From an uncultured Planctomycetales bacterium (lineage in GTDB: Bacteria; Planctomycetota; Planctomycetia; Isosphaerales; Isosphaeraceae), in contig CAIYJE010000072.1 of assembly GCA_903926465.1 (NCBI GenBank), positions 1 to 34,200 of the forward strand: 34,200 nt of DNA, given 5' to 3'. The notes under the pieces were generated by a model, which was not told the origin of the DNA, did not search any database, and worked only from the letters and a program-made list of their open reading frames with translations. Every line of letters begins with the position of its first letter. The stretch's first letter is position 1. The translations under genes were made by a program, and so were the position numbers. This document shows, piece by piece, positions 20,068 through 26,238 of the stretch.

Positions 20068-21245
20068 CCATGGACGACCAGGAACGGAAACGGCGATGGC
20101 GGCTGGTTCTGGGGGCCGACGAATCTCAGGCCGATGCCGCGCTCAACGTCTCTCTCTCCAGCGTTGATCAAACCATCGACCGCGCTCTCTCCGCACTCTA
20201 TGAACCGGCAACCGAAGACGACAAGCGGCGCGGCGGGCTTGGGGGGTCGTCACCGAACGTGGCACGCTGGCTGGGTGATATCCGTCAGTTCTTCCCATCC
20301 TCCGTGGTGCGCGTGATGCAGCAAGACGCCATGGAGCGGCTCGACCTGAAAAAGCTGCTCATGGAACCGGAAATGCTTGAGCATGTTGAGCCAGACGTGC
20401 ATCTGGTGGCCAACCTGCTCTCCCTTTCTGGAATGATGCCACGCAAGACCAAAGAAACCGCGCGCCTGGTTGTACAAAAATGCGTGGATGAAATCCAAAA
20501 GAAGCTTGCAGAACCGATGCGTGATGCCGTCACTGGGGCACTCAACCGCTCGGTCCGAAACCGGCGTCCGAAACACAGCGAAATTGATTGGAATCGAACG
20601 ATACGTGCCAACCTGAAAAACTATCAGGCCGATTACAACACGGTCATCCCTGAGGCTAGAATTGGCTACGGCCGCCGCAGGAGCGCCCTGAGAGATATTA
20701 TCCTGTGCATTGACCAGTCTGGCTCGATGGCAACGAGCGTGGTTTACAGTGGCATCTTTGCCGCCGTGCTTGCCACCCTACCGGCCGTTCGAACCCAGGT
20801 TGTGGTGTTCGATACCTCGGTGGTCGACCTCTCCGATAAGCTCAACGACCCGGTGGAAGTGCTTTTCGGTACCCAGCTAGGCGGCGGGACCGACATCAAT
20901 CAGGCGCTTGCCTATTGCCAGAGCCTGATTCGGCAGCCCCAGCAAACGATCATGGTGTTGATCTCCGACCTGATCGAAGGCGGCGTGCGAGAAAACCTGA
21001 TCAAACGAGCAGGGAGCATTATTGCGTCTGGAGCAACCTTGATCTCGCTACTGGCGCTCTGCGACGACGGCACCCCCTGTTACGACCATGAAAACGCCGC
21101 CGACCTGGCCGCGCTGGGCTCACCCGCCTTCGCCTGTACGCCCGACCTCTTCCCAGCCTTGATGGCCGCCGCCATCCAGCGACACGATATTGGCCAGTGG
21201 GCCTCGTCGCTTGGCATCACAACGGCTCGCGCCAGCCAAGACTGA
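20064..21245 (+). CDS. yehP: VWA-domain protein (YehP-like)
   Basis: A 393-residue protein resembling E. coli YehP along its length: RRWRLVLGADES at the start, the segment GGLGGSSPNVARWL, and a C-terminal von Willebrand A domain. The metal-ion-dependent adhesion site is complete: DQSGSM (D about 217) and GGGTDI (T about 276). VVVFDTSVVDLSDKLNDPVE is shared with YehP. VWA proteins beside MoxR ATPases act as cofactors that bind substrate or the ATPase ring. Translation can start at ATG 20064 (ATGA overlap with yehM) or ATG 20070. It is the last operon gene; the REP-like element begins about 24 nt after its stop. Confidence 0.9.
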   Translation: MTMDDQERKRRWRLVLGADESQADAALNVSLSSVDQTIDRALSALYEPATEDDKRRGGLGGSSPNVARWLGDIRQFFPSSVVRVMQQDAMERLDLKKLLMEPEMLEHVEPDVHLVANLLSLSGMMPRKTKETARLVVQKCVDEIQKKLAEPMRDAVTGALNRSVRNRRPKHSEIDWNRTIRANLKNYQADYNTVIPEARIGYGRRRSALRDIILCIDQSGSMATSVVYSGIFAAVLATLPAVRTQVVVFDTSVVDLSDKLNDPVEVLFGTQLGGGTDINQALAYCQSLIRQPQQTIMVLISDLIEGGVRENLIKRAGSIIASGATLISLLALCDDGTPCYDHENAADLAALGSPAFACTPDLFPALMAAAIQRHDIGQWASSLGITTARASQD

Positions 21246-21268
21246 TCACACCCGATCGCGGTTCCAAA

Positions 21269-21301
21269 GCAACAGTGACAAACGACAACGGCCTGCTCTG
21301 G
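21269..21301 (-). repeat. 3' part of the intron-split REP-like unit
   Basis: Reading the minus strand from 21301, CCAGAGCAGGCC followed by TTGTCGTTTGTCAC resembles the repeat at 24277-24308 (CCAGAGCAAGCA, TTGTCGTGTGTCAC) over about 27 of 32 positions. It is the 3' flank of the group II intron and completes the unit whose first part is at 23194-23292. It begins about 24 nt past the yehP-like stop. Confidence 0.8.
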
Positions 21302-21345
21302 ATAGGGGTAGGGAAGACCCATTGGCTTGGGTCTCCCCTCCCTCC

Positions 21346-21378
21346 GAACCGTACGTGCGGATCTCCCGCATACGGCTC
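21346..21378 (-). ncRNA. Group II intron domain V
   Basis: The minus strand here begins GAGCCGTATGCGG and ends CCGCACGTACGGTTC. It folds as the 33-nt domain V hairpin, with the AGC triad near its 5' end, a two-part stem and a small terminal loop. It stands 18 nt after the maturase stop. Domain VI (about 21302-21345) follows with the GGGAAGACCC-type stem before the intron end. Confidence 0.9.
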
Positions 21379-21396
21379 TCCAGTCGGGGTTTTACC

Positions 21397-22719
21397 TCAA
21401 AGAGGATTGGCTGGCGAACTGTAAGCTCGTGCCAGACTGTAGAGCCCACGTTCGTCAAAGTAAGCATCAGGCCAGCGAGCGTTGGCCTTGCCCAAAGCTT
21501 GGCCTCGAAGTTTGTTACGGCTCATCAGAATGCGACGCAGACGGCGGCGTATCCAGCCGTCCAGACGGCTATATAACCGCAGACGACCGTGCTGAAAGTA
21601 TTCAAACCAACCGCGAAGCATCCGGTTCAAGTCCGCAATGATGGCCGGAAGCGAATTGCCGTTTGTGCGTGGTGTCTTGTGCCGTATCTTGGTCTTCAAC
21701 TTCGTCACGCTCTGTTTTCGTGGCCTGTAACGCCAGCCTCGAAAATGATAGCCCAGGAAGTCAAATCCCTCAGTCCGGACATCGACCACTTTCGTCTTCG
21801 TGGGGTGAAGCTGAAGCTCATTCTCTGTGACCCAAGCTTCGACCAGGGCCAGTGCATGAGCGGCCTCTTCGGCCGTTTGGCACAGAATCACGAAGTCGCC
21901 TGCATAACGCACCATTTCCAGTCCCGTCTGGGCCATCATATGGTCCAATGGGTCCAGATAGATATTGCTAAGCAGCGGGCTGAGCACGGCGCCTTGCGGG
22001 GCTCCCATGCTCGGCGTCAATTCCTCCGGGCCGTCCAGGATCTTCGCCTTCAGGAAAGTCTCGATCAGGGACAGCACCGAACCATCCGCAATCTTCTCTT
22101 TCAATCGGCTCAGAAGACGGTCGTGCGGAATCGTGTCAAAGTAGCCCTTCAGGTCCGCGTCCACAACGTAGACGTGACCCGCTTGGATGAGCTCGTCAAC
22201 ACGGCATAACGCATCTTTGCAGCCTCGACCGGGACGGAATCCGTAGCTTTGATCCGCGAAATCACGCTCGAAAATCGGTTCGATCACGTTCACTACCGCC
22301 GCCTGCACCATCCGATCTCGTACCGTGGGTATCCCCAGCGGTCGTGTCTCGTTTGTGCCGGGTTTCGGGATATGCACGCGACGGATCGACTGGGGCCGGT
22401 ATCCACCGTGCTTCAATTGATCGGCCACTTCCCAGAGTGATTCCGGGAGGGCTCGCTCAAAATCTGACACTGTGATGTGGTCAACGCCAGCTGATCCCCG
22501 ATTTGAGGCAACCTGTTGGAATGCGGCAAACAAGTTCCGCTCCGAGATCACGTTATCAAACAACCTGAACCATTTGCCTCCCTCGATCCCTTGTTCCAGG
22601 GTTGCCAACATACGAACTGTCCACGCCGTCGGTTCGACCCATCGCCATCGCGAGAGGATCTCTCCGGCTTGTTGAGCCTGGGGCACTGACGCCGGTCTGT
22701 CTTCCGCCGATCGTGTCAT
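21397..22719 (-). CDS. ltrA: Group II intron reverse transcriptase/maturase, YAGD variant
   Basis: A 440-residue LtrA-like protein with the fingers-palm order of intron reverse transcriptases: NRGSAGVDHITVSDFE, RRVHIPKPG, RPLGIPTVRDRMVQ, DQSYGFRPGRGC, VVDADLKGYFDTIPHD (motif 3, Asp present), MGAPQGAVLSPLLSNIYLD and DFLGYHFRGW. The maturase X domain follows (IADLNRMLRGWFEYFQHG); there is no endonuclease domain. The catalytic box, normally YADD, is YAGD here: codon GGC at 21898-21900 gives G274 in place of Asp. That Asp binds a catalytic metal, so polymerase activity should be abolished or very weak, while splicing (maturase) function may remain. The start ATG 22719 and all frames are intact. 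The substitution is a single A-to-G change. Confidence 0.9.
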   Translation of the reverse strand: MTRSAEDRPASVPQAQQAGEILSRWRWVEPTAWTVRMLATLEQGIEGGKWFRLFDNVISERNLFAAFQQVASNRGSAGVDHITVSDFERALPESLWEVADQLKHGGYRPQSIRRVHIPKPGTNETRPLGIPTVRDRMVQAAVVNVIEPIFERDFADQSYGFRPGRGCKDALCRVDELIQAGHVYVVDADLKGYFDTIPHDRLLSRLKEKIADGSVLSLIETFLKAKILDGPEELTPSMGAPQGAVLSPLLSNIYLDPLDHMMAQTGLEMVRYAGDFVILCQTAEEAAHALALVEAWVTENELQLHPTKTKVVDVRTEGFDFLGYHFRGWRYRPRKQSVTKLKTKIRHKTPRTNGNSLPAIIADLNRMLRGWFEYFQHGRLRLYSRLDGWIRRRLRRILMSRNKLRGQALGKANARWPDAYFDERGLYSLARAYSSPANPL

Positions 22720-23193
22720 CTCATATCCACCTTCCTGGAGCCCTTCGCTACACCGAAGTTACCCGGTTTCGACGCTACTATGGCTCCTCTGACTCCTACG
22801 TGCCAGCTCTGGGGATCCCGTGATCATCAAGCCGATCTGAAACACGCAGGTCTCTCTGTGTCATGTGTCTAACCTTCCGACCATTCCACCTCCAAAAACC
22901 CATCCCACTCCTTACGTCGCTTTAGCAGGTTACCCATCAGCTCGTAAGGCTTCCGACTTGCGTCGGTCTGGACTTCACCTTATGCCAGCAGGCTCGTCAG
23001 GTAGGCAGGCCGAATCGAGTTCACTTGCGTTGTGGACTGGTCTTTCGCCTTATGTTGCTTCCCACCCCGCCTCGCGGCGACGCAGTTACACTCGGCTACA
23101 GGCCGGAGAACGTATACCTGGAAAGGACTTGCACCTCCTGGTCAGACACACTTCGAAACATTGGCGAAGTGCCAAGGTTTCTAACAGACGCAC

Positions 23194-23292
23194 TGGCATG
23201 GATGACGCCGTCTGCGGGTCATCCGTGCAGTGCAGCCATGGGAAAGTGCGTGCTCTGGAGTGGTGCAGCCGTGGGAGAGGGCGTGCTCTGGA
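23194..23292 (-). repeat. 5' part of the intron-split REP-like unit, inverted relative to the array
   Basis: The minus strand of 23194-23264 is identical over 71 nt to plus-strand 24368-24438, and similarity continues to about 23292. It holds one REP hairpin and two CCAGAGCA sub-repeats. The orientation is opposite to the array at 24105-24461, so the RAYT gene lies between inverted copies. Confidence 0.9.
23200..23224 (-). repeat. REP-like hairpin, minus-strand copy
   Basis: GGATGAC and GTCATCC form a 7-bp stem; CCG/CGG inside extends it around a CAGA loop with one bulged C. It is the same 25-nt hairpin as in the array. The group II intron begins 6 nt after it. Confidence 0.88.
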
Positions 23293-23326
23293 GTTCTAAG
23301 TTTTCCGGTCGAACGGTTTTTTTTGC

Positions 23327-23908
23327 TCAGTCGAACAGGTCGGCGGTGGGCGAGTGAAGTTCAGGAAGATCCGGATCAATAGGACGCTCTGGTTCTTCTC
23401 GATAAAACCGTGCGCTAGACCATTTCCAGTCCATGGGAGTTGCGGCTAGTCCGCGTCTAAGCGGGTTTCGATGAATATAGTGGGTCGCGTTCAAGATTCT
23501 TCGCTCGCCCCGAATATTCTGATCGTGCCCACCACCTTGCTGCCAGAAGCGGAAAGTTTGACTTCTATCGGGATAGTGCACCATCAATCGTGGGAGCGCG
23601 GGATAGTTGTCAGTTTCCCAGAGTCGATGGACGAAGCGTGATAAAGGTTGTTTGAAGCTCTTCAGAAAGAGTTCACTCTCAAACGTTGGACTTGATGGAA
23701 GTACGAGCATGTGCACATGCTCCGGCATGTAGACGAACGCGATCCGCTTGCATTTGTGTGACAGTAGCGCTTTGTCGATGCGCCGGGAAAGACCACACAC
23801 AACACGCGGATCGGTGAGTAGGGAAAGTCTTTGATAACAGTTGAACGTGAATAAGTGTAGATCGCCATGTTCGTGGTATCGCCGCACCGTTTTCCGATGG
23901 ATGCCCAT
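23327..23908 (-). CDS. REP-associated tyrosine transposase (RAYT)
   Basis: A 193-residue Y1 transposase of the RAYT group related to IS200/IS605 TnpA. It contains the HUH motif (MPEHVHML, H64 and H66), the RAYT-type segment FWQQGGGHDQNI (121-132) and the catalytic tyrosine Y144 in HYIHRNPLRRGL. RAYTs nick single-stranded DNA at REP hairpins and are thought to disperse them. It is flanked on both sides by REP-like repeats in opposite orientation, as expected for a RAYT with its cognate REPs. No IS200-type left or right end was found, so it is a domesticated-type gene rather than an insertion sequence. ATG 23908 is the start. The frame is intact. Confidence 0.9.
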   Translation of the reverse strand: MGIHRKTVRRYHEHGDLHLFTFNCYQRLSLLTDPRVVCGLSRRIDKALLSHKCKRIAFVYMPEHVHMLVLPSSPTFESELFLKSFKQPLSRFVHRLWETDNYPALPRLMVHYPDRSQTFRFWQQGGGHDQNIRGERRILNATHYIHRNPLRRGLAATPMDWKWSSARFYREEPERPIDPDLPELHSPTADLFD

Positions 23909-24114
23909 GCTCAGGAACTCATCGCGTTAGATCGGCTCGACACTCAAGGTCAAGCCAATCATTCGAATGGTGGAGCTTGATTGTAAACCGAGGTTCTACA
24001 CGCCTGCTATCGCCAATCATTTCTTTCTCATAGCGGCAGACTCACGACCGATGATCGTTTGGCTTGCGTGAATATTTGGCCTCCCGCACGCAGTCACCCT
24101 TTCCTTCACTGCAC

Positions 24115-24139
24115 GGATCACCCGCAGACGGCGTCATCC
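24115..24139 (+). repeat. REP-like hairpin, copy 1
   Basis: A 25-nt hairpin with GGATCAC as left arm and GTCATCC as right arm; one stem position is mismatched relative to copy 4. Loop CAGA. Confidence 0.85.
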
Positions 24140-24212
24140 ATGCCACCAGAGCAGGCCCTCTCCCATGGCTGCACCACTCCAGAGCAAGCCCTTCCCCATG
24201 GCTTCACTGCAC

Positions 24213-24237
24213 GGATCACCCGCAGACGGCGTCATCC
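24213..24237 (+). repeat. REP-like hairpin, copy 2
   Basis: Identical to copy 1 over the 25-nt hairpin, including the GGATCAC left arm with one mismatch. Confidence 0.85.
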
Positions 24238-24310
24238 ATGCCACCAGAGCAAGCCCTCTCCTACGGCTGCACCACTCCAGAGCAAGCAATTGTCGTGTGT
24301 CACACTGCAC

Positions 24311-24334
24311 GGATGACCCGCAGACGTGTCATCC
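24311..24334 (+). repeat. REP-like hairpin, copy 3
   Basis: The stem GGATGAC/GTCATCC is perfect, but the inner part is one base shorter: GT replaces GGC before the right arm, giving 24 nt. Confidence 0.85.
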
Positions 24335-24407
24335 ATGCCACCAGAGCACGCACTCTCCCACGGCTTCACCACTCCAGAGCACGCACTTTCCCATGGCTGC
24401 ACTGCAC

Positions 24408-24432
24408 GGATGACCCGCAGACGGCGTCATCC
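24408..24432 (+). repeat. REP-like hairpin, copy 4
   Basis: Perfect 7-bp outer stem with CCG/CGG inner stem and CAGA loop. Identical to the inverted copy beside the group II intron, and followed by the uninterrupted sequence at the site where that copy holds the intron. Confidence 0.88.
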
Positions 24433-24538
24433 ATGCCACCAGAGCACGCACTTGTCTTCTGCTTCCCAGAAGTACGCAGCCTCGGCAAGACTTTGGATCA
24501 ACAATGAGGCTTTCACCCTGGTGGGCTGACATCGTACC

Positions 24539-24552
24539 GCCCCGATCGGGGC
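24539..24552. terminator. Palindrome after the CoA-disulfide reductase
   Basis: GCCCCGATCGGGGC is a perfect 14-nt palindrome 34 nt beyond the minus-strand stop at 24586. The position fits transcription termination, but no U-tract follows on the minus strand. Confidence 0.35.
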
Positions 24553-24585
24553 TCATTACAATCCGGCCCGAGGGTTTTTACGGAC

Positions 24586-26238
24586 TCAACCAAGATCAGG
24601 CTGGTACAGCCTGTAAGTTTTGTAGCCACCGCCTATGTTGGACGCATCAAAACCGGCCTGGTTGAGAATTCTGGTGGCCAGGTAACCCCGCTGGCCCACC
24701 TGGCAGTACACGGCCAGCGGCTTGCCCGCAGGCAGTTCGGCCAGCCGGCCCCTGAGGTTATCTACGGGAATGTTAACCGCGCCCGGTAGATGCCCAGATG
24801 CAAATTCCTGGGGCGATCGCACGTCGAGCAGGAACGGCCGATCGGCCGGATCGATGGCCAGAATAGCATCCATATCAAGCTGGGGATGATCGTTCCTGAG
24901 CAGGCCGGCCGCCACAAATCCCGCCATGTTCACCGGGTCTTTGGCAGACCCGTACTGGGGAGAGTACGCCAGCTCCATCTCCTCCAGGTCATACACCGTC
25001 AGGCCGGCCTGAATGGCCACCGCCAGCACATCGATCCGTTTATCCACACCGGCACCACCCACGGCCTGGGCACCAAGAATGCGGCCCGTACTTGGATCAA
25101 ACAGCAGCTTCAGAACCATCCCCTCTGCACCCGGGTAATAACCCGCGTGATGGGCCGGATGCACATAGATTTTGCGGAACGCCCGATTCAATCTGCGCAG
25201 GGTTTTTTCGGATGCTCCCGTCATTGCGGCCGTGCAATCAAACACGCCAACAATGGCGGTACCCTGGGTTCCTCGGTACTTCTGCTTGCGACCAAAAACG
25301 TTGTCGGCGGCAATCCGCCCTTGCCGGTTGGCAGGCCCAGCCAACGGCACCTGGGTTGGATCTCCCAGCACCACGTCTTTGACCTCGATCACATCGCCCA
25401 CCGCATAGATGTCTGGATCACTTGTCTGAAGATACTCGTTCACCCTGATCCCGCCACGGGGACCGGTTTCCAGCCCTGCGTCCACCGCCAGTTTGTTTTC
25501 TGGGCGCACGCCAACCCCCAGAACCACCAGTTGAGCCGTCAACCGCTCGCCAGCCTTCAACTGGACCACAAGTCCATCTGCACTGGTTTCCAATCGGGCC
25601 GCCGATTGACCCAATAACACCGTGACCCCGTTGCCCCTCAGGGTTTCCACAATGGGGGTTGTCATTTCCTGGTCGAACGGAGGCAACACCTGATCTTGAA
25701 GCTCCACCACCGTGGTCGCCACTCCACGCTTTACCAGGTTCTCAACCAGTTCCAGCCCAATGAAGCCGGCCCCCACAACCACAGCGCGCTGGATTCCCTG
25801 ATCGACGCGTTGCTTGATCTGATCCACATCTTGCAGGTTTCGCAGCGTGTAAATTCCTGGCAGGTCGAGACCCGAAATGGGCGGCCGCAACGGCGCGGCC
25901 CCTGGGGCCAAGATCAACTTGTCATAAGATTCCTCGTACTCACGCCCCGTGGCCACATCACGAACACGCACCTTTTTGGCTGCGCGATCGATCGATTCCA
26001 CGGACGACTGAGTTCGCACGTCAAGATTGAACCGTGTTCGCAGCATCTCCGGAGTGGTCACCAGCAACTTCTTGCGATCAACAATCTCGCCGCCCACATA
26101 GTAAGGTAAACCACAGTTCGCAAAAGATACATCGGGGCCACGTTCGAATAGCACAATCTGAGCATTTTCCGAAAGTCTGCGAGCCCGCGCCGCCGCCGAG
26201 GCTCCACCTGCCACCCCACCAACAATCACGAGTTTCAT
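24586..26238 (-). CDS. CoA-disulfide reductase with C-terminal rhodanese domain
   Basis: A flavoprotein of the NADH oxidase/CoA-disulfide reductase family, 550 residues, that reduces CoA disulfide or persulfide with NAD(P)H. The FAD-binding start is KLVIVGGVAGGASAAARARR. The single redox cysteine C42 sits in SFANCGLPYY. A second dinucleotide motif is VVVGAGFIGLELVENL, and the FAD motif DIYAVGDVIEV follows. A C-terminal rhodanese domain carries VYCQVGQRG with C512, and DVRSPQEFASGHLPGAVNIP. The fusion suggests handling of CoA persulfides or polysulfide. ATG 26238 is chosen because AAGGA stands 9 nt upstream; the frame extends eight codons further to a TTG. It has no operon partner here; the REP region lies downstream. 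Confidence 0.9.
   Translation of the reverse strand: MKLVIVGGVAGGASAAARARRLSENAQIVLFERGPDVSFANCGLPYYVGGEIVDRKKLLVTTPEMLRTRFNLDVRTQSSVESIDRAAKKVRVRDVATGREYEESYDKLILAPGAAPLRPPISGLDLPGIYTLRNLQDVDQIKQRVDQGIQRAVVVGAGFIGLELVENLVKRGVATTVVELQDQVLPPFDQEMTTPIVETLRGNGVTVLLGQSAARLETSADGLVVQLKAGERLTAQLVVLGVGVRPENKLAVDAGLETGPRGGIRVNEYLQTSDPDIYAVGDVIEVKDVVLGDPTQVPLAGPANRQGRIAADNVFGRKQKYRGTQGTAIVGVFDCTAAMTGASEKTLRRLNRAFRKIYVHPAHHAGYYPGAEGMVLKLLFDPSTGRILGAQAVGGAGVDKRIDVLAVAIQAGLTVYDLEEMELAYSPQYGSAKDPVNMAGFVAAGLLRNDHPQLDMDAILAIDPADRPFLLDVRSPQEFASGHLPGAVNIPVDNLRGRLAELPAGKPLAVYCQVGQRGYLATRILNQAGFDASNIGGGYKTYRLYQPDLG

Follow-up and report, generated by a model that had tools for sequence, protein, structure and literature searches.

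A group II intron that interrupts one unit of a dispersed repeat raises the question of whether the intron reads the repeat as its target or has ended up there by other means. Such an intron lies in the window analysed here, which is the whole stretch of 34,200 nucleotides from contig C72 of an uncultured Planctomycetales bacterium, the genome being a 6.89 Mb draft in 207 contigs. We consider it very likely that the intron is an endonuclease-less, hairpin-guided group II retroelement, class C-like in kind, that inserted into a REP unit beside the gene of a REP-associated tyrosine transposase (RAYT). Judged from the DNA alone, this reading draws on the split of the repeat at an exact base, the complementarity between EBS1 and the repeat tail, covariation in related introns, recurrent hairpins and sites that lack the intron.

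Ends and strand of the intron

The intron lies on the minus strand at 21302..23193 and is 1892 nt long, with the ends GTGCG...CTAT. The sequence-only reading had given these ends and this length without the strand, and it was right, since the intact units of the neighbouring array, the end of the Rfam match to domains V and VI and the register of the EBS1-IBS1 pairing all agree. On the minus strand, with a slash at each boundary, the junctions read ...GTCATCCATGCCA / GTGCGTCTGT...CTACCCCTAT / CCAGAGCAGGCC..., and the REP unit is split between ATGCCA and CCAGAGCA, with CATGCCA directly before the intron and CCAGAGCA directly after it. The 5' exon ends in the REP tail ATGCCA, the IBS1 (23194..23199, minus strand), and the 3' exon starts with the remainder of the unit (21294..21301, minus strand). 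That an uninterrupted site of the array equals the two exons without the intron, as had been claimed, is borne out by CATGCCACCAGAGCA, which is found intact four times in the array (at 24139, 24237, 24334 and 24432). The ends are unambiguous because the terminal bases of the intron differ from the exon bases that the array shows beside them, the first intron base being G against a C that opens the 3' exon, and the last intron base T against an A that closes the 5' exon. Joined at these ends, the exons are predicted to read ATGCCACCAGAGCA.

The Rfam match to domains V and VI (RF00029, 57.6 bits, gathering threshold 40) covers 21302..21380 on the minus strand and stops exactly at 21302, and the termini GTGCG...AT follow the group II rule GUGYG...AY. 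Matches to the Rfam D1-D4 families stayed below gathering (31.1 of 49 and 25.9 of 35) and were not used for class assignment. Near the 5' end of the intron there is an insertion of about 30 nt (approximately 23155..23184, minus strand), hairpin-like by eye, which is missing in 21 other rows of the intron alignment.

The REP repeat and the RAYT gene

The hairpin that bears the intron, GGATGACCCGCAGACGGCGTCATCC, lies at 23200..23224 on the minus strand, 2-6 nt upstream of the insertion. The distance of 6 nt given in the sequence-only reading holds for the core palindrome GGATGAC...GTCATCC; with three further pairs on the outer side of a mismatch included, the stem comes to within 2 nt of the junction. 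The hairpin is found more often than by chance, with 25 matches in the genome at up to three mismatches and none for the reversed pattern, and the tail ATGCCA follows directly after 21 of the 25, the intron-bearing one included. Four further units, all on the plus strand, form the array at 24115..24139, 24213..24237, 24311..24334 and 24408..24432; three of them fit the pattern, and the third in order is one base shorter and for that reason falls outside the 25 matches.

The RAYT gene (23327..23908, minus strand; NF047646, 83.4 bits, cut-off 80) has the intron-bearing unit on one side and the array on the other, and the same profile has six matches in the genome, three of them above the cut-off. 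REP units on its two sides point in opposite directions, a minus unit on one side and plus units on the other, which is the layout expected when a RAYT is accompanied by REPs that belong to it. A reading of the insertion site as a transcription terminator was rejected, as there were no terminator-like sites within 21000-24600 against 3.2 in shuffled sequences, a result which alone does not exclude a IIC intron.

Pairing of EBS1 with the REP tail

An alignment of 22 related intron rows contains a hypervariable loop of six bases flanked by GAGCCTGC and by AAGGNGAAG-like sequence. In the window this loop reads TGGCAT (intron nt 207-212; 22982..22987, minus strand) and is complementary to the REP tail ATGCCA in all six bases. 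In 15 introns the loop was located from its flanking sequence only and then paired with the last six bases of the exon; these 15 are what was left of the 22 aligned rows once a near-duplicate and surplus copies of the same intron had been set aside. The pairing score of the 15 was 73, compared to a mean of 35.2 and a maximum of 58.5 when the exons were reassigned to the loops in 100,000 permutations, and it dropped to 25-33 when the exon was slid by one to five bases. As both controls score lower, the result speaks for the loop being EBS1 and for the intron boundary as claimed. An EBS/IBS pairing model, which the sequence-only reading had proposed as a check, holds in that EBS1 complements the REP tail and covaries with the exon across 15 introns. 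Individual scores span 3.5-6, with the window at 6 of 6 and five introns pairing weakly (L040 with 3.5, and L044, L046, G025 and G033 with 4 of 6). A IIC intron would be expected to have 3-4 bp here and to lack an IBS2-EBS2 pairing. Introns whose 5' end is off the contig or was not found stand outside both this test and the hairpin test below (C98, C200, L041, G027, G044, G158, G168, G299 and the C63 copy of G033).

In a scan for EBS3, the best column was intron nt 298 (22896..22896, minus strand), where 13 of 14 introns pair with the first base of the 3' exon. The one that fails to pair is the window intron, whose T faces the C opening its 3' exon. Since 604 of 5000 permutations reached 13/14 at some column, the position is unremarkable and was dropped as independent proof, and a candidate EBS3 at this place is suggestive only.

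The intron-encoded protein

A protein of 440 aa is encoded within the intron (21397..22719, minus strand). Pfam reports a reverse transcriptase (RVT_1) and a maturase domain (GIIM) in it and no endonuclease domain, and it matches TIGR04416 with 381.7 bits (cut-off 300). The closest solved structures are 7uim (226 bits), which we take to be a IIC protein, and the GsI-IIC RT (224), followed by 6me0 (162) and LtrA (141). Among solved structures the protein appears nearest to the IIC proteins, and a place among class C neighbours such as g6, U1 and U2 of PMC8919778 is possible too.

At the active site of the reverse transcriptase the window reads YAGD, with the codon GGC for Gly274 (21898..21900, minus strand), where relatives have YADD, a motif that is present in all 39 readable of 43 related loci when copies of one intron are each counted. 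The aspartate that is lost is essential for reverse transcription. Because the catalytic YADD is replaced, the window copy is probably no longer mobile by means of its own protein. The codon is one base away from one for aspartate, and a sequencing or assembly error at this single base is a possible alternative. Beside YAGD, the probable mismatch at EBS3 and the presence of a single copy of this intron family also speak for an immobile copy, which in addition has the roughly 30 extra bases near its 5' end.

Other introns in the window genome

The genome holds one copy of the window intron family. Two other DNA matches were found, one being a second group II intron (C98:26-1637) of 67% DNA identity over 1.6 kb, the other an intron fragment of 96 bases (C200:65262-65357). 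A search for further copies at the same distance from a REP hairpin had been proposed together with the original observation, and its outcome is divided: the fragment on C200 stops 6 nt away from a different hairpin, one with five further matches elsewhere in the genome, but the C98 intron ends 79 nt before a REP and does not occupy the window REP at the same position. In both cases the contig breaks off within the intron, so that the 5' exon is unassembled, which suggests collapsed copies. In a tree of 21 proteins the C98 protein groups with those of a genome of the same bacterial family, G038, with support 100/99. A third domain V-like match (C68:60-134, L039; 38.5 of 40 bits) lies on a small contig, 12 bases into the intergenic side.

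Occupied and empty targets of related introns

In G038, all 11 copies of a related intron are inserted at the same base, ...GACGCGGAGCGTCGNGGA / intron / CGGCAT..., and the joined site has 74 matches, of which, among those listed, at least 30 are uninterrupted (at least 90% identity over at least 68 nt). Beyond the intron, the copies share only some 26-133 nt of DNA on the upstream side and 21-60 nt on the downstream side. A recurrent target hairpin was found in all seven genomes searched, with 10 to 121 matches per genome: apart from the 25 and 74 matches in the window genome and G038, there were 10 places in G435 (control 1), 81 in G436 (control 0), 17 matches at 11 places in G437 (control 0), 38 matches in G439 (control 0) and 121 in G438 (control 0). 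These patterns were taken from occupied sites, and in G437, G439 and G438 both arms of one palindrome may each count. The proposal that a dispersed REP serves as target is supported by such relatives at other recurrent hairpins, together with the complementarity of EBS1 and the REP tail.

Relatives on Burkholderiales plasmids, which are outside the set of 15 introns, begin with GTACG as against GTGCG in the window, and their EBS1 is ACTAAA, with the complement TTTAGT. The intron on the Cupriavidus taiwanensis STM 8555 plasmid retains YADD. This complement closes the 5' exon in all four plasmid loci, and ACAA follows the intron in three of the four filled sites. Empty sites read TTTAGT / ACAA in all six that were inspected, including Cupriavidus necator H16 and Paraburkholderia phymatum STM815. 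In four of the six annotated loci fetched (L163, L187, L188 and L191) there are integrase or recombinase genes close to the target palindrome, which for this reason may be an end of some other mobile element.

A related intron in G261, which comes from another family, directly adjoins a RAYT gene (C1 around 2396275-2396761, L093). The occupied sequence is found three times within 6 kb around this gene, one copy with one mismatch, and its hairpin is not above the local background. Adjacency to RAYT as a general rule was rejected: when 16 RAYT-like proteins were compared by tblastn with the window and 43 intron loci, a whole RAYT was found in the window and G261 only, the remaining five matches being a reading frame that runs into the 3' end of an intron. 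In G025 (C105, L053) the intron protein is split by a stop or frameshift, the start of the intron is two bases off the boundary predicted from EBS1, and the hairpin resembles the second hairpin of the G038 repeat.

Hairpins upstream of the junctions

Junctions at 20 sites, with one of the 11 copies in G038 counted, were compared with 5107 upstream background positions by the score of the best stem whose end lies 0-8 nt upstream of the position. The median score was 8 at the junctions and 4.5 in the background (Mann-Whitney p 2.8e-10), and 13 of the 20 hairpins were within the top 6% of their own local background. The remaining seven are not clearly above it, with at least 10% of background positions reaching their score (G417a, G417b, G432b, G432c, G261, G033 and L045). 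The four copies in G432, which are not mutually independent in the intron, follow four different stems, two of them with T-rich, terminator-like 3' exons, and the two exons in G417 are unlike each other. Proximity to a hairpin looks general in the set, and a dispersed repeat looks like a frequent, not the sole, source of the hairpin.

A bias towards one replication strand was also considered for G038. On its contig C5, where GC skew was sampled at 19 places and the replication arms were assigned by hand (one sample near 3.98 Mb contradicts its neighbours), 8 of 11 introns and 6 of 18 uninterrupted sites are on the strand expected to be lagging-strand template (Fisher p 0.060). All 11 introns are on this contig, compared to 18 of 30 uninterrupted sites (p 0.018). 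We regard both differences as too weak to use.

Mechanism and alternative explanations

The matched unit is a hairpin together with a tail of six bases that pairs with EBS1. Splicing and mobility of the window intron are predictions from its sequence, and a plausible course would be that spliced intron RNA and the protein reverse-splice into DNA that is single-stranded and has folded into the REP hairpin, with the base of insertion set by EBS1-IBS1 and probably by one EBS3-IBS3 pair. As the protein has no endonuclease domain, cDNA synthesis would be primed from nascent DNA. A hairpin that is intergenic and present in many copies would offer many landing sites at a low cost, and the sequence-only reading had likewise foreseen many potential homing sites. 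The 25 REP matches speak for that, but only one of them is occupied by the window family, and by a copy that looks defective.

A rather unlikely, still serious, alternative is that the intron accepts every kind of intergenic hairpin, that of a terminator as well, and hits REPs simply because they are the commonest. It gains from the four different hairpins used in G432, two with T-rich 3' sides, from class C introns reported after terminators in passages of PMC8919778 and PMC4424553, and from a statement in PMC3898094 that calls the specificity of IIC introns limited. The fit of EBS1 to the REP tail over six bases, a tail carried by 21 of 25 REPs, and the confinement of all 11 copies in G038 to one repeat argue against it, and the difference from targeting of the REP is one of degree only. 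It could also be imagined that the intron never chose the REP, and that a REP in which it was already present was duplicated or relocated, through RAYT or recombination. The intron-bearing REP does adjoin a RAYT gene, likewise in G261, but we find this explanation very improbable: shared DNA in G038 ends near the intron and at least 30 copies of the repeat are uninterrupted, the Burkholderiales sites exist both with and without intron, and matching between EBS1 and exon is expected only if the intron reads its site. A chance landing of one intron in a repeat-rich region, with a coincidental match of six bases, would be in keeping with the single copy of the family in the window genome, but it is contradicted by the permutation and slid-register controls and by recurrent targets in seven of seven genomes searched, and hardly deserves belief.

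Relation to known mobile elements

Class C (group IIC) introns were reportedly found by Robart in 2007 to be inserted after intrinsic terminators. The same location is given in the accessible parts of PMC8919778, PMC4424553 and PMC7161350, and PMC7923331, to the extent available, also names attC and other inverted repeats as IIC targets and gives IBS1-EBS1 as 3-4 bp. With these introns the window intron shares a hairpin just upstream, a short IBS1, the lack of an endonuclease domain and a protein nearest to IIC among solved structures, whereas it targets a dispersed REP that has no T tract like that of a terminator, and EBS1-IBS1 in its set reaches 6 bp and tracks the tail of the repeat, compared to the 3-4 bp in that excerpt. 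We think that the window intron works like a class C intron and is a class C-like variant of a known hairpin-guided targeting, for which the available text of PMC3898094 terms the mechanism of hairpin recognition unknown.

The IIC-attC introns of integrons, documented in passages of PMC4424553 and PMC7923331, are also a lineage specialised on the recurrent hairpin of another mobile system, but here the hairpin is a REP beside RAYT (also in G261) or a palindrome beside integrase genes (4/6 annotated Burkholderiales plasmid loci). An association of a group II intron with REPs is already in print for Pseudomonas putida KT2440, where Tobes and Pareja (2006, PMC1525189) counted 2 of 9 with REPs; it is a minority association, and the accessible portion of that paper presents it without junction, EBS or mechanism. 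The same portion lists insertion sequences that target REPs (ISPsy8, ISPa11, ISPpu9, ISPpu10, ISRm22 and ISRm19), for which REPs are likewise landing sites in many copies for another mobile element, with recognition of DNA by a transposase there in contrast to RNA pairing and a hairpin here. An EBS1 that tracks the tail of a REP, or a single repeat that holds all copies in a genome, was not found among the titles and abstract beginnings that searches of one open-access library listed.

We tentatively suggest, as an idea with slightly less than even prospects, that a broad hairpin-guided lineage has repeatedly re-tuned its EBS1 to the tails of palindromes spread by other mobile systems, such as RAYT-linked REPs and palindromes beside integrases. 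Records of the lineage carry titles of Planctomycetaceae, Pirellulales, Acidobacteriota, Tectomicrobia and Deltaproteobacteria, in addition to the Burkholderiales plasmids. If this is true, the intron would act as a secondary parasite, settling in repeat families that other elements have produced. Pairing of EBS1 with the tail of an intergenic hairpin in many copies is a concrete reason why a loosely specific intron can multiply harmlessly. The case also links two systems that handle hairpins of single-stranded DNA, RAYT with its REPs and the endonuclease-less group II introns. From the EBS1 of a new intron its target can be predicted, as succeeded for the Burkholderiales plasmids, and as filled and empty sites are there found in cultivated, named strains, hairpin recognition could be tested in them.
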